From: Bacillus marasmi
GTDB taxonomy: Bacteria; Bacillota; Bacilli; Bacillales; Cytobacillaceae
Assembly: GCF_902168435.1 (NCBI RefSeq)
Contig: NZ_LR656169.1
Coordinates: 236,787-300,786, forward strand
Direction of reading: 5' to 3'
DNA: 64,000 nt
A program made the translations under genes and the position numbers. Every line of letters starts with the position of its first letter. Position 1 is the first letter of the stretch. A model generated the notes under the pieces. It made no database searches and was not told the DNA's origin. It was given only the letters and a program-made list of their open reading frames with translations. Shown here piece by piece: positions 3,097 through 42,905 of the stretch.

Positions 3097-4419
3097 TTAA
3101 TAAATGGATGTATTTTCCTTTGACATATTTTCAAGTATCCCTTTTAAATGTGCGAGGAATTTTCCACAAATCAGTCCATCAAGAACGCGATGGTCAAGCG
3201 ATAAACAAAGATTCACCATGTCGCGAATGGCAATCATATGATCGTGAAAGACCACCGGACGTTTGATAATGGATTCGACTTGTAAAATCGCTGCCTGTGG
3301 GTAGTTAATGATTCCCATTGACTGTACCGATCCAAATGAACCTGTATTATTAACAGTGAAGGTTCCGCCGCTCATATCATCAGTCGTTAATTTTCCAGAG
3401 CGAGTTTTGTTGGCAAACTCCGAAATTTCTCGAGCGATTCCCTTGATTGATTTTTCATCAGCATGTTTAATCACTGGGACGAACAATGCATTATCGGTCG
3501 CTACTGCAATTGAAACATTGATTTCTTTTCTCTGGATAATTTTATCCCCTGCCCAGGTTGAATTTAGCTCAGGAAAAGCTTTGAGGGCTTGGGCAATAGC
3601 TTTAACAAAAAACGCAAAAAATGTGAGATTAAAACCTTCCTTTTGTTTGAATTCGTCCTTAAGTGAGTTACGATATGCCACTACATTCGAAACATCAGCT
3701 TCAATCATCATCCATGCATGCGGGATTTCCTGCTTGCTGCGGACCATATTAGACGCTATCGCTTTTCGGATACTAGAAACGGGTAATTCAATGTCTCCTG
3801 TTGAAAATGTAGTAGGTTTTATTTTTTGCAGACCTTGTTGCTCGCTATCATTAGGCTGAACTGCGATTACATTTTCTCGAGTTTTAGTAGCGATGTGTGC
3901 TTCGTTTGGGGTTGTTCCCGCTTCAATGAGTTTTAAAATATCTTTTCTGGTAATTCGACCTTCGGCACCTGTGCCTTTAACTTGGTTCAAATCGATTCCG
4001 TGCTCCTGGGATAGCTTTAAGACAGCCGGTGAGTAGCGGACTTTTAAATTTTGTGTAGCTGCAGAAGCATTTGCTGGAGCAACTGCTAGTCGGGCGGCGA
4101 TTGTTTTTGCGGTTGTAGTGATTGAATCAGCCTTGGTATCATCGTTGCGCCTGTTGGAGGAAGAAGTTTCTGAAACTCCATCGACTTCAATCGTACAAAT
4201 GATTTCCCCGACAGAAAAGGTATCACCTTCAGCAGCGATTAACTCTTTAATGACACCTGCAAAGGAGGATGGGATTTCCGCATTTACTTTATCTGTCATG
4301 ACCTCTGCTAAAGGATCATACTTTTTGACATTGTCCCCCTCCTTGACCAGCCACCGACTAATCGTGCCTTCGGTGACACTTTCACCAAGCTTAGGCATTT
4401 TGATGTTTTCAATACTCAA
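3097..4419 (-). CDS. bkdB: Branched-chain keto-acid dehydrogenase E2 (dihydrolipoyl transacylase)
   Basis: A 440-residue E2 that carries acyl groups on lipoate to CoA in the branched-chain 2-oxoacid dehydrogenase complex. The N-terminal lipoyl domain has the acceptor Lys44 in MTDKVNAE. A peripheral subunit-binding domain lies near 127-163 (RYSPAVLKLSQEHGIDL, GTGAEGRITRKDI). The C-terminal catalytic domain ends with DHRVLDG (His410, Asp414). Translation starts at TTG 4419 behind an AAGGAGGAG site. It is the last gene of the bkd operon, separated from bkdAB by a 165-bp spacer of short tandem repeats. Lipoylation could depend on lipM, also in this window. Confidence 0.95.
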   Translation of the reverse strand: MSIENIKMPKLGESVTEGTISRWLVKEGDNVKKYDPLAEVMTDKVNAEIPSSFAGVIKELIAAEGDTFSVGEIICTIEVDGVSETSSSNRRNDDTKADSITTTAKTIAARLAVAPANASAATQNLKVRYSPAVLKLSQEHGIDLNQVKGTGAEGRITRKDILKLIEAGTTPNEAHIATKTRENVIAVQPNDSEQQGLQKIKPTTFSTGDIELPVSSIRKAIASNMVRSKQEIPHAWMMIEADVSNVVAYRNSLKDEFKQKEGFNLTFFAFFVKAIAQALKAFPELNSTWAGDKIIQRKEINVSIAVATDNALFVPVIKHADEKSIKGIAREISEFANKTRSGKLTTDDMSGGTFTVNNTGSFGSVQSMGIINYPQAAILQVESIIKRPVVFHDHMIAIRDMVNLCLSLDHRVLDGLICGKFLAHLKGILENMSKENTSIY

Positions 4420-32219: not shown

Positions 32220-32726
32220 CTATTGATATTTAGCTGCTAAATCATATAGGTCGCCTTTAGAAATAGGTCCGGTATAATGCTCACGGATAACGCCTTCTTT
32301 ATCGATAATAAAGGTTTCGGGTTGACCGACAACATTATATTCTTTAGACACCTTTCTGTTGAAATCAAATAGATAGGTGGAAGTTGTTTTATGCTCTTTA
32401 ACAAACTTCTTGACCCGATCCTGTGTTTCACCAAGATCGATTATGAGCAATTTAAATTGATCTCCATACTCTTGTTCAAATGCTTCTAGCTCAGGTGCCT
32501 CATCGACACAAGGACCACACCAAGTTGCGAAATAGTTTAATATTACTACTTGTCCACTATAGTCAGATAGCTTTGTCTTTTTACCATCTATATCTTCTAA
32601 TTCAAAAGCATAAGCTTTCTCACCAATACCTGTGTATTCACCTTTTGTTGCTAGAGAAATCCCAAAATAAACAAAAAGACCAATTACACCTGCTAAAATA
32701 AGAATTTTTATACCGCGTTTATTCAT
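32220..32726 (-). CDS. Membrane-anchored thioredoxin-like protein (ResA/CcmG type)
   Basis: A 168-residue protein: uncleaved N-terminal helix (about 8-26), then a TlpA/ResA thioredoxin fold with active site Cys70-Gly-Pro-Cys73 (YFATWCGPC) and the cis-proline loop VVGQPETFIID. It faces outside and should reduce apocytochrome CXXCH disulfides before heme attachment. It closes the ccm operon after a hairpin. By location it plays the CcmG role; by sequence it is closer to ResA of Gram-positive bacteria. Confidence 0.88.
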   Translation of the reverse strand: MNKRGIKILILAGVIGLFVYFGISLATKGEYTGIGEKAYAFELEDIDGKKTKLSDYSGQVVILNYFATWCGPCVDEAPELEAFEQEYGDQFKLLIIDLGETQDRVKKFVKEHKTTSTYLFDFNRKVSKEYNVVGQPETFIIDKEGVIREHYTGPISKGDLYDLAAKYQ

Positions 32727-32788
32727 TCAAACTTCCCCCGGTTCTTTCATGTAGATTCCTAAATGGATGATAGGTTTGGGTACCAGGA

Positions 32789-32815
32789 TAGGGCCTGCTA
32801 TATTAACAGGCCCTA
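32789..32815 (-). other. Intercistronic hairpin between ccmD and the resA-like gene
   Basis: A perfect 9-bp stem (TAGGGCCTG with CAGGCCCTA) has a 9-nt AT loop but no T tract after it. It is more likely an mRNA-stability or processing element than a terminator. Confidence 0.5.
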
Positions 32816-32822
32816 CTAATCA

Positions 32823-32945
32823 TTAATCTAATTGGTTTAAAAAATCAATTTCCTTTTGAAGCTTCTTTCGGCGTAAACTATGAAGAAGTACATAACCAAT
32901 AATTGCAACACTTGATATTACATATCCTGCTACCATGTATTCCAT
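32823..32945 (-). CDS. ccmD: CcmD-like small membrane protein
   Basis: A 40-residue protein: one membrane helix (about 5-23) followed by a basic stretch (LRRKKLQKE), which is the CcmD layout. ATG 32945 has a strong AAGGAGGG site. It follows ccmC by 12 nt, the standard ccmCD order. In system I, CcmD is needed to release holo-CcmE from the CcmABC complex. Sequence conservation in such a short protein is weak, so identity rests on layout and position. Confidence 0.8.
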   Translation of the reverse strand: MEYMVAGYVISSVAIIGYVLLHSLRRKKLQKEIDFLNQLD

Positions 32946-32957
32946 ATTACACCCTCC

Positions 32958-33713
32958 TTATCTAATCGATTCTCTGACCTGCTCTTTATATTGTTCAACC
33001 TTAATTTTTAGCTTCTCAAATGAAACTCCTCTAACAAGAAGGAATGAATAAAGGATAGTTGTAAATGCAATCATCGTAAGAAGCGCAACCAACATTTCAG
33101 GCTCTATTCCGCCACCTGACTGGTCTTTCCCCTCACCAAATACAACTGGATGGAATTTTGTATTCCACCATCTAATCGCCATAAATACAATTGGTACATC
33201 AGCAAAGCCAATAATGCCAAATACAGCTGCAAGTCTTGCTTTCTTTTCCCAAACTCCGTCCATTTGACGAATCATCACGTAGGCAACATAGATGAACCAA
33301 AGGATTAATGATGTAGTTAAGCGTGGTTCCCATGCCCACCATGTATTCCATGAAGATTTTGCCCAAATCATCCCAGTAAGTAGTACAAGGGTGATAAAAA
33401 CAACTCCTATTTCAGCAGATACATAAGCGTAAGTATCATATATTCTTTTTCTTTTTACTAAATAAAGAATACTAAAGACAAATGTTACAAAAAAGGCACC
33501 GAAGCCGATCCAGGCGATTGGAACGTGAACGAAAAAGATTTTCTGAACAAGCCCCATCACTTTTTCAGTTGGAGCATAGAAAAATACTAAATATAAACCA
33601 ACAATTAACGTTACGAGTGATGCCCACCCCAGAATCGTTTGTATTTTGGACGGTGGTTCAACTGTTGGAGGAACAGGCTTACTCGCCTTTTCCTTTTGTA
33701 GACTCATACTCAT
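32958..33713 (-). CDS. ccmC: Heme exporter/handling protein CcmC
   Basis: A 251-residue protein with six membrane helices and the WWD-type heme motif WWAWEPRLTTSLILWFIYVAY, flanked by conserved histidines (HVPIAWIG). CcmC loads heme onto CcmE at the outer face of the membrane. It is 2 nt from ccmB within the operon. The WAWEPR form distinguishes CcmC from CcmF and from ResC/CcsA (WAWD). Confidence 0.93.
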   Translation of the reverse strand: MSMSLQKEKASKPVPPTVEPPSKIQTILGWASLVTLIVGLYLVFFYAPTEKVMGLVQKIFFVHVPIAWIGFGAFFVTFVFSILYLVKRKRIYDTYAYVSAEIGVVFITLVLLTGMIWAKSSWNTWWAWEPRLTTSLILWFIYVAYVMIRQMDGVWEKKARLAAVFGIIGFADVPIVFMAIRWWNTKFHPVVFGEGKDQSGGGIEPEMLVALLTMIAFTTILYSFLLVRGVSFEKLKIKVEQYKEQVRESIR

Positions 33714-33715
33714 AT

Positions 33716-34399
33716 TTATACCTCCAGAACATATTCAATTAATAAGAAACAAAGAACAAAGAAGATGACATCATAAGCAGCAATTAATTGAATCCATGCT
33801 ATTGCATCTGGCAGCTTCTCAAGATTGGTAAGAATGATTCTTGTTGCTTGTACTGCACCGATTAAAATAGGAGCAGTTACCGGAAATAATAATAATGGCA
33901 GCAGCATTTCACTGCTTTTAGAATTTGCTGCAAGTGATGCTAAAAAGGTTCCGATACTTATAAAACCAAAGCTACCAATAAATAAGACAAAGATAAAATA
34001 AGGCAAACTACCAATGTATTTAAAATCAAACAAGAGGAATAAAAATGGAACAGCAACTAATTCCACAATAATCATCATTGAAAAATTCGCCAAAAACTTA
34101 CCTAAATAAATACTAGTTGGATCCATTGGCGAAATAAGTAATCCTTGCATCGTGTCATTTTTTTGTTCCGAAAGGAAAGAGCGATTTAAGCCTAGTATTC
34201 CAGAAAAAACGATAATTACCCATATGACTCCCGGAATAACAGCTTTTGTAGTGTTATTTGATGGATCAAAGGCAAAGCTGAATACTAATATTGTCAACCC
34301 TGCAAAAATAATCATCGTAGCCAATACTTGCTTAGTTTTTAACTCTGAATACAAGTCCTTTTGCGCAATATAGAGGGCATTTTTTAGTAAACTCATCAT
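33716..34399 (-). CDS. ccmB: Heme ABC exporter membrane subunit CcmB
   Basis: A 227-residue integral membrane protein with six predicted helices and the CcmB pattern (LNRSFLSEQKNDTMQGLLISPMDPTSIYLGKF, the coupling region). It pairs with CcmA. The start overlaps the ccmA stop (ATGA), so the two are translated together. Confidence 0.92.
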   Translation of the reverse strand: MMSLLKNALYIAQKDLYSELKTKQVLATMIIFAGLTILVFSFAFDPSNNTTKAVIPGVIWVIIVFSGILGLNRSFLSEQKNDTMQGLLISPMDPTSIYLGKFLANFSMMIIVELVAVPFLFLLFDFKYIGSLPYFIFVLFIGSFGFISIGTFLASLAANSKSSEMLLPLLLFPVTAPILIGAVQATRIILTNLEKLPDAIAWIQLIAAYDVIFFVLCFLLIEYVLEV

Positions 34400-35097
34400 T
34401 CACCCTCCGTATGTTCAAGATATTTTTCTAAAACAAATTCTATTTGGTTTTCAGAGATATTGAAGTCATCAACTATCTTTCCGTTTTTCACGATGATAAT
34501 GCGATCACATATCTCTGCAGCCTGTTTGAAATCGTGGGTAACCATTAAGGTTGTAGCACCTTTTTGCTTCATAGACACAATTACATCGTTTAAGATTGAA
34601 ATAGCCCCCTGATCTAAGCCAGTATGAGGCTCGTCCAACAGAAGGAGTTCTGGGTCATGAATGATGGCTCTAGCAATTGCAGTCCGCTGAATCATCCCTC
34701 TGGAAAAGTTTTTTACAGGCTCTTTTAAAAAGAAGGAAAGTCCAACATCTTTTACCAGTTTAATTGCTTTTTGTTCAACATCCTGCACACCATATAAATT
34801 ACCGAAAAAAACAAGGTTTTCAAGTGGGGAATAGTGTTCATATAACAAGCTAGAATGGGGCAAATACCCCATTAGCTTTTTTATATCGTTTCCGTTTTTC
34901 TTTAAATCAAGCCCGCTGATTTTCACTTCACCACTTGTTGGCTTGATAAGTGTGGCAATTACCTTCAACAGTGTGCTTTTCCCCGCTCCGTTTGGACCTA
35001 AAATTGCAACCGTTTCACCTTTTTCAATCGATAGGTCAATGCCTCGTAAAATTAGTTTTGTATCTGCTTGCTTTATGAGTTTTTTTATTTGAATCAC
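34396..35097 (-). CDS. ccmA: Heme ABC exporter ATP-binding subunit CcmA
   Basis: A 233-residue ABC ATPase: Walker A GPNGAGKST, signature NFSRGMIQRTAIARAI, Walker B LLLLDEPHTGLD, and the switch histidine in MVTHD. GTG 35097 follows GGGAGGG. With CcmB and CcmC it drives release of heme-charged CcmE. The signature FSRGM is a slight variant of LSGGQ and is typical of CcmA-like ATPases. Confidence 0.92.
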   Translation of the reverse strand: MIQIKKLIKQADTKLILRGIDLSIEKGETVAILGPNGAGKSTLLKVIATLIKPTSGEVKISGLDLKKNGNDIKKLMGYLPHSSLLYEHYSPLENLVFFGNLYGVQDVEQKAIKLVKDVGLSFFLKEPVKNFSRGMIQRTAIARAIIHDPELLLLDEPHTGLDQGAISILNDVIVSMKQKGATTLMVTHDFKQAAEICDRIIIVKNGKIVDDFNISENQIEFVLEKYLEHTEGE

Positions 35098-35122
35098 TTA
35101 GAGGCCCTCCCCATACCAGTTG

Positions 35123-36154
35123 TTACTCAACAAATTGATTTAGGCTCAACTTTACCTGGACTAGGTGTTGTTTGTAGGCCTCCAACTTGGCATGATAGTC
35201 ACTTTCTGATATTTGCCCTTTTTCTAGTGTTTCTTCTAGTTCTAAAATTTTATCGAGGATGGTTTTTTGTTTTGCCATCAAAAGTTTAAAAGCTTGCTCA
35301 TCTTTATCGTCAGCAGCATTTCTCGTTTTTACTCGGTGTTTCCATTGGAAGTAACTGAAATATCCAATACCAGCTATTAAAATAGCTCCCAATACAATCA
35401 TCAAGATATGTGGGTCAAACCCCTTTAAAGCTGATTGCTCCCACATCCGTAAATGACCTGGGTTATGGAAATCAGGAGATGCCTTCGTTACATTTCCAGC
35501 AGCACTATTTTGAGTACTATCAGTAGCGTCTGTTTGCTGACCTTCAGGTTGTGTCCCTTCAGGTTGTGTCCCTTCAGTAGAACTCGGTTGAACATCCTTG
35601 TTATATGCAAGTGTTATAGTTTGTTTAGCTTCGATATTTTGAACAACGTATGTCCAATATTCCTTTTCGTCGATGCTTAAGAAGCCTTGACTTTGGGCAT
35701 CAACATCTTTAAACTCGATGCTTCCCATGCCTTTAGGAACTAATACTTGATACATAGCCACAGGAAGATTAAAGTTCAATACAATATCCTGCCCTTTTGG
35801 CACTTGATAAGTAAATGGCAACGTAATGGAACCTTTAGGCTCGATTGGATCAGTCGAAACAAAGCCATTATCCGTTTTTTTGTAATTAATCGCTTCTTCT
35901 AACATTTTTAGGTTTTCGGCACCAGGAGGGAGAGTTACCGAAATAACCCCCTCCGATTGTCCTTCACCCTTATATTCCTCATCAGTCATGTTTTTATAAC
36001 TAACCATGTCCATAATTTGTGTTGATCCATCCTGTAAAGGAGATACAACAATGTATTGCATTTGAACACTCAGCTTGTCCGCTTCTTTAGCAAATGCCGT
36101 GAAATACGGAATTAACAGTAACACTAGGAGAGGAATAATGATTTTTTTAATCAT
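35123..36154 (-). CDS. Membrane-anchored protein of unknown function in the ccm operon
   Basis: A 343-residue protein with a signal peptide (1-22), a beta-rich extracellular domain (about 25-190), an acidic low-complexity linker with TQPEG repeats (about 190-225), one membrane helix (about 249-268, ILMIVLGAILIAGIGYFSYF) and a cytoplasmic helical tail that ends with LEKGQISESDYHAKLEAY. The domain order is the same as in the 349-residue protein at the head of the operon. The start overlaps the stop of the CcmI-like gene. I do not recognise the family; a role as scaffold in the maturation complex is inferred from context. Confidence 0.85.
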   Translation of the reverse strand: MIKKIIIPLLVLLLIPYFTAFAKEADKLSVQMQYIVVSPLQDGSTQIMDMVSYKNMTDEEYKGEGQSEGVISVTLPPGAENLKMLEEAINYKKTDNGFVSTDPIEPKGSITLPFTYQVPKGQDIVLNFNLPVAMYQVLVPKGMGSIEFKDVDAQSQGFLSIDEKEYWTYVVQNIEAKQTITLAYNKDVQPSSTEGTQPEGTQPEGQQTDATDSTQNSAAGNVTKASPDFHNPGHLRMWEQSALKGFDPHILMIVLGAILIAGIGYFSYFQWKHRVKTRNAADDKDEQAFKLLMAKQKTILDKILELEETLEKGQISESDYHAKLEAYKQHLVQVKLSLNQFVE

Positions 36155-36522
36155 TTCTTCCCCTCCTTTTTTCCGCGCTTGCGTTTAAGTGCTGCTTCAA
36201 TTTCACGCTCTACATCGGACATGACACTAGCATTCACATTCGTTTTAACATTTCTATCTTCAGATTTTAAGATTTTAGAAACTTCTGTTTCATACTGTTT
36301 CTTAAGATTTTTAAAATCAATTTCGGATAATTTACCCATCTTATATTCAAACTCTATTTCATTTAAGGTTGTTAATAATGCCTCTTTATCTGAAATTGTC
36401 TCTTGCTTACCCTCTGAAGTTGAAAGATAGGCATCCCATTTAAAAAATGGAGCTAATACTAGAAACAAGCAGCTTAGCACAAGAACGGCCGTTAAAACCA
36501 TCGAGATGATCGAAATCTCCAT
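36151..36522 (-). CDS. CcmI-like small membrane protein
   Basis: A 123-residue protein: one N-terminal helix (about 4-24), then a charged coiled-coil segment, DKEALLTTLNEIEFEYKM followed by GKLSEIDFKNLKKQYE. That segment resembles the N-terminal part of CcmI/CycH (membrane helix plus short helical domain). It lies directly after ccmH, where CcmI genes are often found. I use ATG 36522; GTG 36531 would add three residues. It lacks the TPR domain of full CcmI. Confidence 0.75.
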   Translation of the reverse strand: MEISIISMVLTAVLVLSCLFLVLAPFFKWDAYLSTSEGKQETISDKEALLTTLNEIEFEYKMGKLSEIDFKNLKKQYETEVSKILKSEDRNVKTNVNASVMSDVEREIEAALKRKRGKKEGKK

Positions 36523-36534
36523 ATTGATCACATC

Positions 36535-37047
36535 CTACAAATACTTTTTTCTTTCCTCTTCAATGATGCTAGACAAAATCTCTTCTTCGACTTCATCACT
36601 CTCTTGGTGGTCATCCACCATTTCTGCGCGACCAGCATTTTTGTTTACCCATTTACGAATCATGAAGAATATTCCTGTTCCAGCACCGCCAATTGCTGCA
36701 AACGGCAGAACCCAAGCAGCCAAGCTAAAACCTTTTTTTTCTGGCGCTGTCAATATTTCTTCTCCAAGTGCCTTCACGTAATATTCGCGGATTTCATCTT
36801 TGTCCATGCCTTTTTCCATCATGTCAACCAGTTCTGCTTTGAACGCTTCAGTATTCTTACAGCCGGCCATATCACAGGCATAGTGGTCTTGCCCACATCC
36901 GCAAGTACACATAAATTGGGAAGCTACAGCCTTAAATTCTTTTGATTTAATGTTAATACCTTTATTATTGTCTGCACCTAGAACGGCGAAAGCTCCCTGG
37001 AAAATAAACAAAATCATGAGTAGGCCAATCGAAAGTTTTTTATTCAA
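36535..37047 (-). CDS. ccmH: CcmH-like cytochrome c maturation protein
   Basis: A 170-residue protein: signal peptide (1-25), a Cys-rich domain MCTCGCGQDHYACDMAGC (Cys47, 49, 51, 58, 63), helix bundle KAELVDMMEKGMDKDEIREYY as in CcmH, then a membrane helix (about 107-127) and an acidic tail. Classic CcmH has LRCxxCQ; here a C-x-C-x-C cluster replaces it. TTG 37047 sits at the ccmF stop behind GAGGTGG. It probably presents or reduces apocytochrome thiols. Confidence 0.82.
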   Translation of the reverse strand: MNKKLSIGLLMILFIFQGAFAVLGADNNKGINIKSKEFKAVASQFMCTCGCGQDHYACDMAGCKNTEAFKAELVDMMEKGMDKDEIREYYVKALGEEILTAPEKKGFSLAAWVLPFAAIGGAGTGIFFMIRKWVNKNAGRAEMVDDHQESDEVEEEILSSIIEEERKKYL

Positions 37048-37048
37048 G

Positions 37049-39031
37049 TTAAGCCACCTCTTTCATTACTCCGGTATATCTTGGTGTAATATTGCCATGC
37101 TTTCCGTTCCATACAGCAAATATTGAACCAATAACGATTAAGAATGATCCAGCCCACATCCAGTTCATCATTGGATTAACTTTTACGATGAATGTTGCAC
37201 GACCATCATTTTCCCATGCGCTTAAAACAATATATAAATCTTCTAGTGCTGAGCTGTGAATTGCCACTTCAGTAGAAGGCTGTTCCCAGTTACCATAGAA
37301 AACTTTTTCAGGCTCGTAAGTGCCTAGCTTTTCACCATTTTTAAATACTGTTAAATCAGCATAAACGATATCATTAATCCCTTCACGGCGTTGATCAAGT
37401 TTTTCATAAACAAGCTTGTAATCTTTTATTTCAATTGAACCGCCGATTGGAACTGTTTTCATTGTTTCTAAATCATAGTTTTGTGAACCGATGATTCCCA
37501 TTGTAATGAAGGCAATTCCAAAGTGAACCATATAGCCACCGTAGCGTCTGCGATTTTTGGTCATTAAGCGATATAAGGCAATTAGTGGATTCTCGCCTGT
37601 CATTTTTCTTCTCGCTTTTACTCCGCGATAGAACTCTAAATAGTGCGTTACGAATAGAAGAATGATAACGCCGTATCCAATTACCGCCCATGCCTTTTGA
37701 ATTCCTAACACTACCATTAACACCATTCCAACAATTGCAATTGCAGCTGGAATTAAGAAGTTTTTCTTTAAATTTTTGATAGTGGACCTTTGCCATGCAA
37801 GCAATGGACAGACCGCCATCACAAACATCATTGATAAAAGAATAGGAGCTTGTACTTGGTTAAAGAATGGAATCCCAACTGTAACCTTAGTTCCACGAAC
37901 AGCTTCAGAAACTAGCGGGAAAATCGTTCCCCAGAAAACAGCAAATGCTGAACCAACCAGTAACAAGTTATTGATTAAGAAACTGCTTTCCTTTGATACA
38001 TAAGAAGTAAATTGTCCAGCACTCCGTTTAATTAAATTGTAGCGACTCATTAATACATACATTGCACCAATGACAGCTACACCCATAAAGATTAAGAAAT
38101 AAAGTCCTAAATTCGAATCCGCAAATGCGTGAACAGATGTTAAAACTCCGCTTCGTACTAAGAATGTTCCAAATAAAGTTAATGCATATGACAGAACAAT
38201 CAAGCTGATGTTCCATACTTTAAGCATGTTTTTACGTTCTTGAATCATTACTGAGTGTAGGAATGCTGTTGCTGTTAACCATGGCATAAACGATGCGTTT
38301 TCTACCGGATCCCATGCCCAGTATCCACCCCAGCCTAGCTCAACATAAGCCCATTGACCACCAAAGATATTTCCTAAGCTCAGGAACAACCATGCAATAA
38401 TTGTCCATCTTCTTGTCATTTTGATCCAGAAATCATCAGTATTTTTCAAGATAAGTGCAGCCATCGCAAAAGCAAATGGTACTGCTAATCCAACGTATCC
38501 GAGGTACAGAGTTACTGGATGGATAATCATACCCGGATTTTGAAGCATAGGGTTCAGTCCTCGTCCCTCAACAGGGATTTGAGCTGTTACTTCAAATGGA
38601 TTTGCCACAAATCCTAGAATAAAGAAGAAGAAAACTCCATTTGCTAGTAAAATCGACGCAATGTAAGGAACCATCGGATTCCCTTTCATCTTGCGTGAAA
38701 ATGTAACCATTACTGTGTAAAGTACTAAGAAGAATGTCCATAGTAACAGTGAACCACCGTTTCCTGCCCACAACGCTGTTAATTTGTAGATAAGCGGAAG
38801 ATCACTACTTGTATAATCAGCAACGTATTTATACTCGAATGCTGATGTTCCTAATAAATAAAACAGAGTAAGCATGGCTAGTGATGCTGTCACAAGAAGG
38901 GCGATAACTCCGCCCTTACCACTATTGATGAATTTTTGATTTTTCGTTGCAATCCCGTAAGTCATAATTAACAAAGCATAGATCGCTAGTGCAAACCCTA
39001 AATAAATCGTTGCGTTAGCAAATAAATACAT
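37049..39031 (-). CDS. ccmF: Cytochrome c heme lyase CcmF
   Basis: A 660-residue polytopic protein (about 15 helices) with the WWD heme motif GWGGYWAWDPVENASFMPWL (about 235-255) and conserved histidines in MIIHPVTLYLGYVG and LHSVMIQERK. It accepts heme from CcmE and, with CcmH, ligates it to CXXCH motifs outside the membrane. The large C-terminal extracellular loop (about 525-630) is present. It is the central enzyme of the system I operon. Confidence 0.95.
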   Translation of the reverse strand: MYLFANATIYLGFALAIYALLIMTYGIATKNQKFINSGKGGVIALLVTASLAMLTLFYLLGTSAFEYKYVADYTSSDLPLIYKLTALWAGNGGSLLLWTFFLVLYTVMVTFSRKMKGNPMVPYIASILLANGVFFFFILGFVANPFEVTAQIPVEGRGLNPMLQNPGMIIHPVTLYLGYVGLAVPFAFAMAALILKNTDDFWIKMTRRWTIIAWLFLSLGNIFGGQWAYVELGWGGYWAWDPVENASFMPWLTATAFLHSVMIQERKNMLKVWNISLIVLSYALTLFGTFLVRSGVLTSVHAFADSNLGLYFLIFMGVAVIGAMYVLMSRYNLIKRSAGQFTSYVSKESSFLINNLLLVGSAFAVFWGTIFPLVSEAVRGTKVTVGIPFFNQVQAPILLSMMFVMAVCPLLAWQRSTIKNLKKNFLIPAAIAIVGMVLMVVLGIQKAWAVIGYGVIILLFVTHYLEFYRGVKARRKMTGENPLIALYRLMTKNRRRYGGYMVHFGIAFITMGIIGSQNYDLETMKTVPIGGSIEIKDYKLVYEKLDQRREGINDIVYADLTVFKNGEKLGTYEPEKVFYGNWEQPSTEVAIHSSALEDLYIVLSAWENDGRATFIVKVNPMMNWMWAGSFLIVIGSIFAVWNGKHGNITPRYTGVMKEVA

Positions 39032-39056
39032 TACGTCACCTTCTTTTCTTGGCCTA

Positions 39057-39512
39057 TTATTCTTCGCTGGAAGGCTGATCTAATTTTTCTTTGTGTGTAT
39101 CTGGGTCATAGTTTTCCATATCCTGACCTTCATATTTTGATGGACAGCGAGTTTTCACAGTTTCTGCAACAAATGTGTCCTTCTCAGTTGGCGCACCTTG
39201 TAAAATGGTGATAACCCCTTCAGAGAAGTTATCAGGTTTTACACCATTGTGAATAACATGCATCACATTGCCATCGTTGTCTTTTACATCAAATTTTAGT
39301 TCAATTTTGTCAGCGTCCCATTTGATAGAATCTTCTATTAGTAATCCCTCAACCGTTACAAAATAACCATCTTGGTATTTTTCCTGGTTCTTAAGAAGCT
39401 CGTCCATTTTAAGCTCAACTCCACTTGAACCAGGTGTTGCAGCCATAAGAAGGAAAATAATCGCACCAGCAATAATAAAGCCACCAATCATGACAATTGT
39501 ATTTTTTTTCAT
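39057..39512 (-). CDS. ccmE: Heme chaperone CcmE, cysteine (CxxxY) type
   Basis: A 151-residue protein: N-terminal anchor (about 7-24) and an OB-fold heme chaperone domain. Near the C-terminus, where classical CcmE has the heme-linking histidine, it has TRCPSKYEG with Cys123 and Tyr127. This is the CxxxY form known from Desulfovibrio and archaea, in which cysteine binds heme. It lies 25 nt before ccmF in the operon. Confidence 0.9.
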   Translation of the reverse strand: MKKNTIVMIGGFIIAGAIIFLLMAATPGSSGVELKMDELLKNQEKYQDGYFVTVEGLLIEDSIKWDADKIELKFDVKDNDGNVMHVIHNGVKPDNFSEGVITILQGAPTEKDTFVAETVKTRCPSKYEGQDMENYDPDTHKEKLDQPSSEE

Positions 39513-39526
39513 TTTTCTTTTCCCCT

Positions 39527-40576
39527 TTACCCCAATTTTTCTATTTCTTTTTCGTACGTTTCTTCATCAATTTCCCCATTGATTAATTTTGCTCTTAGCT
39601 TCTTTTTATTTTCTGTTGCATCTTTTTTATTTACCTTTTGCGCAGGCTTTCCTACAGTTGGTTTTTTAATGTTGTTTTTACTTTTTGGTCCAGAAGATTT
39701 TGTGCTTCTGCTATTACCTTTTAGACCTAAAAATACAAATACACCGGCAATGATAACGGAAATACCAATAATGATTGCTCCACTTGTACCGATGATAGGC
39801 TGCTCAGATTTGTTATTATTCAATACTTGATCAGTTGCGGATTTACCGTCTACACCACTATGATTTTCATCATTAGGCGGAGTTTGTTCGCTAACCGTTT
39901 TCAAAGTTGAAGTATTGTCTTTTTTAACATACGTCGCAGCAATATTCACTGCTTCGCCTTGCTTCTTATTTTTGAATTGATAAATATGAAGCTTTTCGGC
40001 GTATTCACTATCTGATGTACTTGTCGCAGCTGGTTCAACTTTAAAGTCCTTTGACTTTAATGGGGCATAAACGATGATATCTAACACTTCTGTATCGGCC
40101 AGATTTTCATATTTAAAGTCAAACTTTTTTGTATCAGCTACTTGAATTGCACTTGTGTAGTATTCAACAACGAAGCTGTATGTTTTACCATTTTTAATTG
40201 GTTCTTGTGGCTTCCAGGTTACAACACCTTTTTCTTTGTTAATTTCAAACGGACGTTGTACTTCTGGATCTTTCTCATTTGGAAATTCTGCCACTAAATA
40301 AATTTCAAAATTTTTATCACTTACCGGTGCCGGAAATTCAATCTCCCCGTTGTAATCCGCACCTGTGTTATTTGTAAAGGTTCCATAATACCCTAGTAAT
40401 AAAGACGCTTGATCCTCTGGCCATTTCTCAGGGTAATCAAACTCTGGCATAACCTGGATTTGCATTTCTTTATATGGGAATTTCTCAGTTGGAAACCCTT
40501 CCGCAGCACTTGCACTTGGGATGAAAGCCGTTAATAGTAATACAGTAATGACAAATGATGCTAATCTCTTAAGCAT
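39527..40576 (-). CDS. Membrane-anchored protein of unknown function at the head of the ccm operon
   Basis: A 349-residue protein with a signal peptide cleaved near SASA-AEG (about 24), a beta-rich ectodomain (about 30-220; LLLGYYGTFTNNTGADYNGEI), a Ser/Asn-rich linker, one membrane helix (about 260-280) and a basic cytoplasmic tail ending RAKLINGEIDEETYEKEIEKL. It is built like the 343-residue protein further down the operon and probably shares ancestry. A GAGGAG site precedes ATG 40576. No enzymatic motif or CXXCH is present. Confidence 0.85.
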   Translation of the reverse strand: MLKRLASFVITVLLLTAFIPSASAAEGFPTEKFPYKEMQIQVMPEFDYPEKWPEDQASLLLGYYGTFTNNTGADYNGEIEFPAPVSDKNFEIYLVAEFPNEKDPEVQRPFEINKEKGVVTWKPQEPIKNGKTYSFVVEYYTSAIQVADTKKFDFKYENLADTEVLDIIVYAPLKSKDFKVEPAATSTSDSEYAEKLHIYQFKNKKQGEAVNIAATYVKKDNTSTLKTVSEQTPPNDENHSGVDGKSATDQVLNNNKSEQPIIGTSGAIIIGISVIIAGVFVFLGLKGNSRSTKSSGPKSKNNIKKPTVGKPAQKVNKKDATENKKKLRAKLINGEIDEETYEKEIEKLG

Positions 40577-40927
40577 TTTACTCCTCCTCGTGAAAACAAA
40601 TCTGTTTTTACTATAATCCCCTTAGAAAGACTATAATCTTTTCTTGATGTTTTGCGTCGATGCTCAGGTGAACATTTTGTTAAAAACATAAAACTTAAGG
40701 TTTTTGTCAAAAAAAAATCAAGAAATATTCACATTTACTATATTGATAACTTATTTTTCCATAAAACATTATCAAAAGTAAGATTTGTTCTAAGGACCAC
40801 AAAAGGAATATTAATATAATAAATCACTGTAATCACGGGTGATTTTCGAATATTTTATAACAAATGATTTTAGAAAAAATAATTAATTCAAAGTGGTAAA
40901 TTATCAACATCCTACTAAGCTTTATAT
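40577..40927. promoter_or_regulatory. AT-rich regulatory gap upstream of the ccm operon
   Basis: A 350-bp region without a credible gene. It holds a minus-strand TTGACA (40710-40705) that could serve as a -35 element for the ccm operon, although no good -10 follows. It also holds a perfect 14-bp palindrome AATCACGGGTGATT-like dyad (AATCAC/GTGATT at 40831-40844), a candidate operator. Both are weak evidence. Confidence 0.35.
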
Positions 40928-40973
40928 AACAAACAAAAAAGCTAACGTAATGACGTCAGCTCTTTTTGTTTGT
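40928..40973 (-). terminator. Terminator after the diheme cytochrome c gene
   Basis: A long hairpin: AACAAACAAAAA and AGCTAACGT pair with ACGTCAGCT and TTTTTGTTTGTT around AATG. It overlaps the gene's stop codon and separates the cytochrome unit from the ccm operon. Confidence 0.85.
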
Positions 40974-41626
40974 TATTTACTTGGAAGGGTTCTAATGTAA
41001 CTAATAATATCACTTATTTCTTGTTCACTAAGCTGTCTGATTCCATCTGCACCTTCAAGCGATGCCGCCATTCTGGTGTCTTCGCGACCATATGCTGTAC
41101 TTATCCACATCTGCTGATCAGTTGTATATTGTAATTTCTGCGGACTTATTAAAACAGTTCCCATCTTCTTCTTTCCAGCACCGTCAATCCCATGACAGGT
41201 TGCACAGAATAACTCGTAATGTTTCTTCCCATTTTCAGGGTCACCACTAATTTTAGCGGGAGCCTCGAGTTCAATTGATTTCTTTTGCCAATTTCTCATA
41301 AATGCAACTACATTGTTCAAATCTTCTTCACTTAGATTTGACCCATATGCTGGCATGACAGTACCTTCTCTTCCATATTTCACCTGATTGTATAGATCCT
41401 TGTCAGAATATGTATTCAGAAAGTGCTGATTGTTAATTGCAGTTCCTTCTTTTGCACCAGATCCTTTTCCGTTATCACCATGACAGGCAAAGCATTGCTG
41501 TTGATAAATCCGTTCCCCAGCCTCAATTGCCTTATGATCTTTTTTGGTTAATAAACTGCTATTGCTAATAATAATGATTATCCCAACCGTGACTAAAATA
41601 TAAACGCCAATTAAGATTTTTTTCAT
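40973..41626 (-). CDS. Membrane-anchored diheme cytochrome c
   Basis: A 217-residue protein: N-terminal anchor (about 4-21) and two class I cytochrome c domains with heme sites Cys45-Cys48-His49 (QQCFACHGD) and Cys141-Cys144-His145 (LFCATCHGI). Met91 in GTVMPAYG is a likely sixth ligand for the first heme. ATG 41626 has AAGGGG 6 nt upstream, placed over the stop of the selenoprotein gene, so both share one transcript. It is the likely client of the neighbouring ccm operon. Its redox partner is unknown. Confidence 0.9.
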   Translation of the reverse strand: MKKILIGVYILVTVGIIIIISNSSLLTKKDHKAIEAGERIYQQQCFACHGDNGKGSGAKEGTAINNQHFLNTYSDKDLYNQVKYGREGTVMPAYGSNLSEEDLNNVVAFMRNWQKKSIELEAPAKISGDPENGKKHYELFCATCHGIDGAGKKKMGTVLISPQKLQYTTDQQMWISTAYGREDTRMAASLEGADGIRQLSEQEISDIISYIRTLPSK

Positions 41627-41636
41627 ATCATTCCCC

Positions 41637-42080
41637 TTACTTAGGTGTAGGAGTAGGTGTTGGTTCACCAAAATCTTCATATTTCTTAATAATATAGCTA
41701 TTAATATCCTTTAAGCTTTTTCCATTCTTGTTCATCTCTACCGCCTCACGGGCGATGTCTACACAAACATCTCAAGCAATCCCCATTTGATCCCATTCAA
41801 CAACTGCGCTGTTCTTATCGAGTTCATCAACAAAACAGTCTAGATTACTAACGTGACCATCAGTACCGTAACAGCCGCAATAACATGGAACAGATGCCAA
41901 TACTTCCGGATAAGTTGCTGCCATGATATACGTTTCTTGAATTAACTCAGATGTATTTGTTACGTAGTTAGGTAATTCCTTGTGCTTCGAATCGAGTGTA
42001 AGCTTTTCATCCTTCCCACAGCCTACCAACACGAACATCGACACAATTCCAATTAACATTAAAAAAGTGAGTCGATTCAC
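41637..42080 (-). CDS. PCYCGC-motif lipoprotein, probable selenoprotein (UGA = Sec103)
   Basis: Read through one UGA (41774-41772), the frame gives 147 residues. GTG 42080 follows GAGGAGG; the lipobox LVGC puts the lipidated Cys at 21; PCYCGC lies at 65-70, Cys82 follows, then MGIA-U103-DVC106-VDIAREAVEM and a Thr/Pro tail. Codons after the UGA keep the family sequence (SLKDINSYIIKKYEDFG), so it is not a decayed tail. As I recall, relatives have Cys at this place, which gives CxxC; here it is UxxC. A SECIS-like hairpin follows the UGA. Most tools would call a protein ending at 41772. The role is probably thiol or metal redox at the outer membrane face, next to a cytochrome c gene. Confidence 0.82.
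41740..41756 (-). promoter_or_regulatory. SECIS-like hairpin after the in-frame UGA
   Basis: The transcript folds AUCGCC-CGUGA-GGCGGU: a six-bp stem with one U-G pair and a 5-nt loop that has G at its second position. The loop starts 21 nt after the UGA. Stem size, loop size, an early loop G and the 16-37 nt distance all fit the bacterial SECIS model. Confidence 0.7.
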
Positions 42081-42291
42081 AGTTGTCCTCCTCAAGTAAT
42101 ATGATATCCGATGCAAATACAATGATATTTTAACAACACAAAACTTACTAAAATCATTTTAATTATTACTATTTAGTGAAGAAATATACCAAAGACACAA
42201 AAATTTTCTAATATAATTTAATCACAAACATAAACTTTTATTTTAAAAAAGTAATAATGAGCGGTATTACATAACACATCCTAAATTTAGA

Positions 42292-42327
42292 TAAAAAAAA
42301 CCTCCAATGGTTTTAAACCACTGAAGG
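42292..42327 (-). terminator. Terminator of efp
   Basis: CCTCCAATGGTTT pairs with AAACCACTGAAGG (two mismatches) and is followed by eight T residues on the minus strand. Confidence 0.82.
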
Positions 42328-42347
42328 ATTTTAATTGAATAAATCAA

Positions 42348-42905
42348 CTATGCGCGTGACACGTAGCTTCCATCTGTAGTATTGATAATCAAGCGATCAC
42401 CTTGGTTAACAAAGAATGGAACCTGAACAATAAGACCCGTTTCAACAGTCGCAGGCTTTGTTCCACCTGAAGCTGTATCTCCTTTAATACCTGGCTCTGT
42501 TTCCGTTACTTCTAGTTCAACTGTATTCGGAAGTTCTACACCTAGAGTCTCACCATGATACATCATGATGGATACTTCCATATTTTCTTTTAAATACTTC
42601 AATTCATACTCAATTGTATTTCCTGGCAATTCGATTTGTTCGTATGACTCATTATCCATGAATACGTGTTGATCGCCGCTAGCGTAAAGATACTGCATTC
42701 TGCGGTTATCAATTTGTGCTTTTGCTACTTTTTCTCCCGCTCGAAATGTTTTTTCTTGGATAGCACCGTTTCTTAAATTCCGAAGCTTAGAACGAACAAA
42801 CGCTGCTCCCTTACCAGGCTTTACGTGTTGGAAATCCATAACACGCCAAATGCTCCCATCAACCTCAATAGTTAAACCAGTACGAAAATCATTAACAGAA
42901 ATCAT
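42348..42905 (-). CDS. efp: Elongation factor P
   Basis: A 185-residue three-domain OB/KOW protein that relieves ribosome stalling at polyproline. The N-terminal KOW domain has the modification loop KPGKGAAF, and the C-terminal OB domain ends with [26 protein letters not shown]. It follows papA by 23 nt, as in B. subtilis. Its downstream neighbour is the accessory block rather than spoIIIAA. Confidence 0.97.

Follow-up and report, generated by a model that had tools for sequence, protein, structure and literature searches.

A putative PCYCGC lipoprotein gene in Bacillus marasmi with an in-frame UGA codon predicted to encode selenocysteine

Organization of the Locus

The DNA considered here is a 64,000-nucleotide stretch of the Bacillus marasmi genome (hereafter, the window), whose minus strand carries a gene for a predicted lipoprotein of the PCYCGC/CYCXC family (41637..42080) that spans 147 residues plus a TAA codon when translated through one UGA. 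Read in this way, the protein matches the Pfam model PF13798 with 117.4 bits, compared with a gathering score of 25. The gene starts with a GTG codon at 42080, ahead of which a ribosome binding site, GAGGAGG (42087..42093, minus strand), was recognized by eye, as was a putative lipobox (LVGC) with its cysteine, Cys21, encoded at 42018..42020 (minus strand). The PCYCGC motif occupies residues 65-70 (41871..41888, minus strand) and is invariant in alignment A1, as is Cys106 (41763..41765, minus strand). Translation bore out what a sequence-only reading of this locus had claimed for codon 103: it is an in-frame UGA (41774-41772), here read as selenocysteine (Sec), that occupies the first position of U-D-V-C, with Cys106 as the second position of this U-x-x-C site, and it is followed by 44 uninterrupted sense codons and the terminal TAA at 41639-41637. 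The distance from this TAA to the next gene had been given as 11 nt and is in fact 10 nt, the cytochrome c ATG lying at 41626.

This downstream gene encodes a cytochrome c with two CXXCH sites (40973..41626, minus strand; Pfam). A consensus scan found two terminator-like hairpins, compared with a mean of 0.8 in shuffles, one separating the EF-P gene from the lipoprotein gene (42301..42327, minus strand) and the other following the cytochrome c gene (40935..40966, minus strand). Genes of System I cytochrome c maturation lie farther along the same strand (32220-39512). Pfam matches in this ccm cluster include CcmE (39057..39512; PF03100), CcmF (37049..39031; PF16327 and PF01578), a CcmH that carries a CTCGC motif and is a distant profile match of the lipoprotein (36535..37047; PF03918 and profile comparison), and a group comprising a thioredoxin-like protein, a CcmC-type protein, CcmB, and an ABC ATPase (32220..35097). 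The CcmE sequence contains TRCPSKYE, which we take to be a Cys-type rather than a His-type haem site. Three further proteins of the cluster (35123-36154, 36151-36531, and 39527-40576, minus strand) gave no Pfam match at E 0.001.

A UGA Codon That Alternates with Cysteine

The stretch of protein encoded past the UGA is under purifying selection. Comparison of the window's gene with 74 UGA-containing relatives gave pN/pS values of 0.286 up to the UGA, 0.154 across the SECIS, and 0.368 for the remainder past the hairpin, and the frame stays open for at least 36 codons past the UGA in all 109 UGA-containing open reading frames (ORFs) of the main set; because of this pattern and these 109 open frames, the continued frame lies far beyond chance. 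Both observations bear on a rival reading of the codon, in which UGA is an ordinary stop, as translation table 11 prescribes, and the working product is a 102-residue CYCGC lipoprotein whose tail has decayed or is reached by rare read-through. Selection on a tail that is open in every one of these ORFs argues against termination, as do cysteine-containing homologues that run on through the UGA site, and we regard an ordinary stop as very improbable.

Homologues were taken from 193 genomes of the host's taxonomic family and from 22 named loci. PF13798 was matched at E 0.001 or better in 112 of the 193 genomes (over the cut-off in 111), and many of these matches contain exactly one TGA; at least 87 of the genomes hold a UGA copy. 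Among the named loci, the nearest is from Bacillus sp. DNRA2 (84% identical), and the rest are mostly from Neobacillus or Bacillus. A search for the CYCxC motif yielded 140 distinct ORFs, 10 of which were left out because they lack [C/U]xxC at the expected distance. The sequence-only reading had turned to homologues for Cys or UGA at the place of residue 103, and these two alternatives are what the remaining 130 ORFs contain (109 UGA and 21 Cys). Fourteen further loci of the protein family had been missed by the motif, 12 of them carrying PCFC[GS]C instead of PCYCGC; when read against the profile, they proved to be 11 UGA copies (one of them frame-shifted), two Cys copies, and one degenerate copy, the broken copies among the 14 being L179 and L180. 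Outside the host's taxonomic family, two loci of the same phylum (L186 and L189) have UGA, and four loci (L184, L185, L188, and L190) have Cys. Unlike the window's protein, the best 13 PF13798 matches by score are free of stops and carry Cys at the Sec position.

A tree of 124 proteins, built on few columns and with many open forks, requires at least five Sec/Cys changes, two of which are forced by well-supported branches. Eight Cys copies that lack the SECIS hairpin lie near Sec copies on this tree (L079, L040, L087, L095, L052, L100, L110, and L129), and such neighbors would represent natural Sec/Cys exchanges.

The same column speaks to the notion that the UGA is a sequencing error or has been reassigned, for instance to Trp. 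An error is always possible in a single genome, and no specific support for one was found; however, 109 distinct ORFs, drawn from many assemblies, share the UGA at one place, and the homologues without UGA have Cys, with Trp in 0 of 130 (a pattern set by the [C/U]xxC filter, yet seen in the unfiltered list as well). With a hairpin that accompanies the UGA as well, error or reassignment has a negligible probability.

A SECIS Hairpin inside the Coding Sequence

In bacterial SECIS elements of the fdhF type, recoding follows rules on a short hairpin within the coding sequence, a G in the loop, and the distance from the UGA. The hairpin at 41740..41756 (minus strand) has the geometry described in the sequence-only reading: six pairs formed by the stems ATCGCC (41756-41751) and GGCGGT (41745-41740) enclose the five-base loop CGTGA (41750-41746). 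It begins 15 nt past the UGA, inside the coding sequence, with 21 nt between the UGA and the loop. In these respects, namely a short hairpin within the coding sequence, a G in the first two loop bases, and a loop 21 nt past the UGA, it is like the fdhF type; unlike that type, the hairpin of this family has a fixed five-base loop, reading CGGGA or CGTGA in each of the 97 distinct sequences taken from downstream of a UGA. An Rfam scan of positions 40500-42500 with E values up to 5 returned five matches, none of them a SECIS and none reaching its gathering score.

Conservation of the hairpin follows the UGA, which upholds the claim that it is a SECIS. All 97 of the UGA sequences form its inner five pairs and none of 21 Cys sequences does, whereas in 200 synonymous-codon shuffles these pairs formed in a mean of 11.56 sequences and a maximum of 22. 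Relative to synonymous shuffles, the mean folding z-score was -1.95 for UGA sequences and -0.04 for Cys sequences. The five pairs are also formed in all 11 UGA copies that the motif had missed, and in L186, L189, and the Thermomicrobium locus L217; 71% of the UGA sequences have the outermost A-T pair as well. That the hairpin is kept in UGA copies only is a further argument against an ordinary stop.

Covariation was measured on 26 sequences picked for diversity, with 500 shuffles that ignore relatedness. In this set, 94.9% of cells pair, both sides change in four of the six pairs, and the covariation score was 0.376 versus 0.151, with none of the 500 shuffles as high; pairing was far lower in slid versions of the hairpin alignment. 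One of the five measures was unremarkable, the number of further pair types being reached by 50 of the 500 shuffles. Of the pairs that change, 9-21 and 12-18 (numbered as in the 26-sequence alignment) fall at third codon positions; thus, protein constraint fails to explain them. In the Thermomicrobium hairpin, two pairs differ from those of the window and still form, and one pair type is unique among the 26.

Selenocysteine Machinery in the Host and Its Relatives

The sequence-only reading had left the presence of selA, selB, selD, and tRNA-Sec to a genome search, and every one of them is present in the window's assembly (4,638,330 bases in 46 contigs). A tRNA-Sec was found with 62.2 bits (gathering score 47) and was assigned by ARAGORN to SeC with anticodon TCA; SelA and SelB matched with 562.3 and 361.5 bits, respectively, and SelD, which has a single UGA of its own in GUGCK, matched with 392.5 bits. 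The assembly also holds likely further selenoproteins, namely a formate dehydrogenase alpha match (G000:C35:88224-90248) and a related match (G000:C37:109126-109875), each with one in-frame TGA. Because of this formate dehydrogenase alpha match, the lipoprotein gene is hardly the sole client of the Sec machinery.

Across the host's taxonomic family, of 172 genomes whose SelA passes the cut-off, 111 have a PF13798 match at E 0.001, as does one of the 21 genomes without such a SelA (Fisher p 8.6e-8, relatedness ignored). That exception, G171, has a UGA copy (L101) with an intact hairpin, yet no SelA, SelB, or tRNA-Sec over the cut-offs. It counts against Sec decoding and lends some support to an ordinary stop, since this genome may tolerate a shortened protein; possible explanations are that G171 lost Sec decoding only recently, or contamination (estimate 5%).

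Taken together, the Sec/Cys exchange, the hairpin conservation, the machinery, and the coding constraint past the UGA make it highly probable (roughly 95%, in our estimation) that UGA codon 103 of this lipoprotein is decoded as Sec. In such a mechanism, the SECIS hairpin within the coding sequence would direct SelB and tRNA-Sec to the codon. The protein would then be a surface selenoenzyme, as the sequence-only reading had suggested, its location being predicted from the VGC lipobox recognized by eye and its enzyme activity putative.

A Listed Family with a Branch below the Model Cut-off

The family to which the protein belongs has been noted before. A 2026 review places "CYCXC family protein (hypothetical protein OS_HP4), PF13798, UxxC" among high-confidence predictions (PMC13188914), and OS_HP4 is listed with UxxC in another paper (PMC9312934). 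The window's protein has both features of OS_HP4/CYCXC as described there, a PF13798 score over the gathering score and a U-x-x-C site (UDVC). A further study mentions a Parageobacillus PCYCGC lipoprotein of unknown function and does not contain the word "selenoprotein" (PMC13068155), and the terms HP4, CYCXC, and PF13798 are absent from the main text of two others (PMC5029168; PMC12013277). Among the titles and abstract openings retrieved, none ascribes a function to the PCYCGC/CYCXC family or connects it with CcmH; in these sources, its published status is that of a predicted selenoprotein without a function. The claim of a new selenoprotein made in the sequence-only reading thus stands for this gene and its branch and falls for the family, which, going by the 2026 review and the NCBIfam entry, was already listed (PMC13188914; NF041379). 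What is added for a known family is the spread of a large branch among Bacillus relatives, its likeness to CcmH, and its cytochrome and metal-gene contexts, which provide a first functional lead.

The window's branch shares with the NCBIfam model NF041379, "CYCXC family (seleno)protein", the CYC-x-C motif and the U-x-x-C site, with alignment over positions 12-89 of 90. It differs in scoring below the cut-off, in being a putative lipoprotein (lipobox by eye), and in its ties to cytochrome c genes in Bacillus relatives. The read-through protein reaches 73 bits (E 1.6e-20), short of the cut-off of 90, and three other members score 64.1, 74.4, and 72.1 bits; a curated selenoprotein model can therefore miss a large branch. 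Pfam, which the window's protein matches well, labels PF13798 PCYCGC a "protein of unknown function", and relatives in plasmid records bear the RefSeq name PCYCGC motif-containing (lipo)protein.

One RefSeq gene of the family is demonstrably cut at its own UGA. On the Thermomicrobium roseum plasmid NC_011961.1, TRD_RS14940 ends at locus position 4231, and the protein match runs to 4360. Translation (L217:3914-4360) identified the annotated stop as the UGA of codon 106, past which the frame continues with a SECIS-like hairpin; a second UGA, at codon 152, is probably the true end. Since the NCBIfam cut-off is missed and this relative is cut at its UGA, it is plausible that automatic annotation would end the window's protein at residue 102.

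Gene Neighborhoods and a Candidate Function

A cytochrome c gene lies directly downstream of the lipoprotein gene in 67 of 130 loci (61 UGA and six Cys), and none is seen downstream in the other 63. Among loci of at least 10 kb, 17 of 20 are cytochrome-linked, and CcmE is found in all 17. At the level of genomes, CcmE occurs in 113 of the 193; the main type and CcmE occur together in 76 genomes, the main type alone in two (G153 and G159), CcmE alone in 37, and neither in 78 (p 1.5e-22, relatedness ignored). Strict dependence of the PCYCGC gene on ccm was not adopted, in view of G159, which keeps the UGA gene and has no CcmE match, and of genus g14, where only G078 of 20 genomes with CcmE has PF13798 over the cut-off. 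The G159 gene (L145) is the same ORF as that of the Neobacillus thermocopriae locus L065, in which the UGA gene is flanked by EF-P and a sporulation gene, and neither a cytochrome nor a ccm gene intervenes.

CcmH (PF03918) is a thiol protein of System I cytochrome c maturation. Comparison of profiles built from 132 PCYCGC and 24 CcmH rows gave a probability of 92.9% and a score of 44.8, whereas 40 column shuffles reached at most 16.9, a reversed profile 11.9, and three other sets at most 14.4. A smaller clean pair of profiles gave 93.8%, and an earlier, smaller set containing one wrong CcmH row gave 78.2%. The CYCGC of the family aligns with the CTCGC of CcmH, and the last helices and C-terminal helix region match. 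Unlike CcmH, the family has its U-x-x-C stretch in or beside an insert, and it has a predicted lipid anchor in place of the membrane helix that follows the CcmH domain. The position opposite Sec varies, being a Cys of the window's CcmH in the 93.8% comparison and a gap in the 92.9% comparison. The Pfam CcmH model did not match the lipoprotein, for which PF13798 was the only match up to E 1, and a PDB sequence search returned CcmH 2kw0 weakly (E 0.28 and 0.19), with saposin A at similar values (E 0.61 and 0.09). A relation between PCYCGC proteins and CcmH is thus advanced here as a hypothesis.

If this relation holds, the mature protein would be a membrane-anchored, extracytoplasmic, CcmH-like thiol oxidoreductase whose Sec-x-x-Cys pair, perhaps together with the CYCGC cluster, reduces disulfides or passes on metal as cytochrome c or copper sites are assembled outside the cytoplasm. 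Such a role is proposed tentatively, at somewhat less than even odds, because of the CcmH profile match, the downstream cytochrome c in 67 of 130 loci, and the presence of CcmE in all 17 cytochrome-linked long loci; the missing Pfam CcmH match, the weak PDB match, G159, and the 63 loci lacking a downstream cytochrome were counted against it. A broader proposal, which we hold to be rather unlikely as a whole, is that PF13798 branched off within the CcmH superfamily as a divergent group with a lipid anchor, its chemistry having moved to an added Sec-x-x-Cys pair; Gram-positive System I bacteria would thus use a selenoenzyme, with repeated Sec/Cys exchange, to reduce apocytochrome c or load extracytoplasmic copper sites.

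A selenoprotein for extracytoplasmic copper or heavy-metal handling, with CYCGC and U-x-x-C binding or reducing the metal, would be a different solution from cytochrome c maturation. Motif searches of the 130 loci, whose flanks are mostly about 2 kb, found relatives near P-type ATPase (nine loci), DsbD_2 (seven), ArsR (six), YtkA (three), and SCO1 (one) genes, and Pfam was applied to example loci with such metal or redox neighbors. Of 17 matched plasmid records, six were examined for neighbors; heavy-metal ATPase or multicopper oxidase genes are nearby in four and not in the other two. The G159 gene, kept without a CcmE match, also fits metal handling. However, the links of the window's own branch are to cytochrome c and ccm genes, thiol redox chemistry could account for SCO1 and DsbD_2 as well, and on the four plasmids with metal genes nearby the copies carry Cys (one record having a second, altered copy); the Thermomicrobium plasmid copy has UGA and no adjoining metal gene. 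Metal handling is possible but somewhat doubtful as the main role.

Experiments on the function of PCYCGC proteins are made more accessible by their links to CcmH, cytochrome c, and metal genes, by the presence of the family in culturable Bacillus relatives, by the occurrence of both UGA and Cys copies among close relatives, and by genomes with multiple copies. Two or three UGA copies occur in 19 of 104 genomes, leaving aside the copies missed by the motif. The window's genome holds three; its second copy (G000:C11:41788-42129; L078) lies in a context of SCO1 and YtkA, and its third (G000:C27:133551-133889; L124) lies with a gene resembling the DsbD_2 of L057 and a response regulator.
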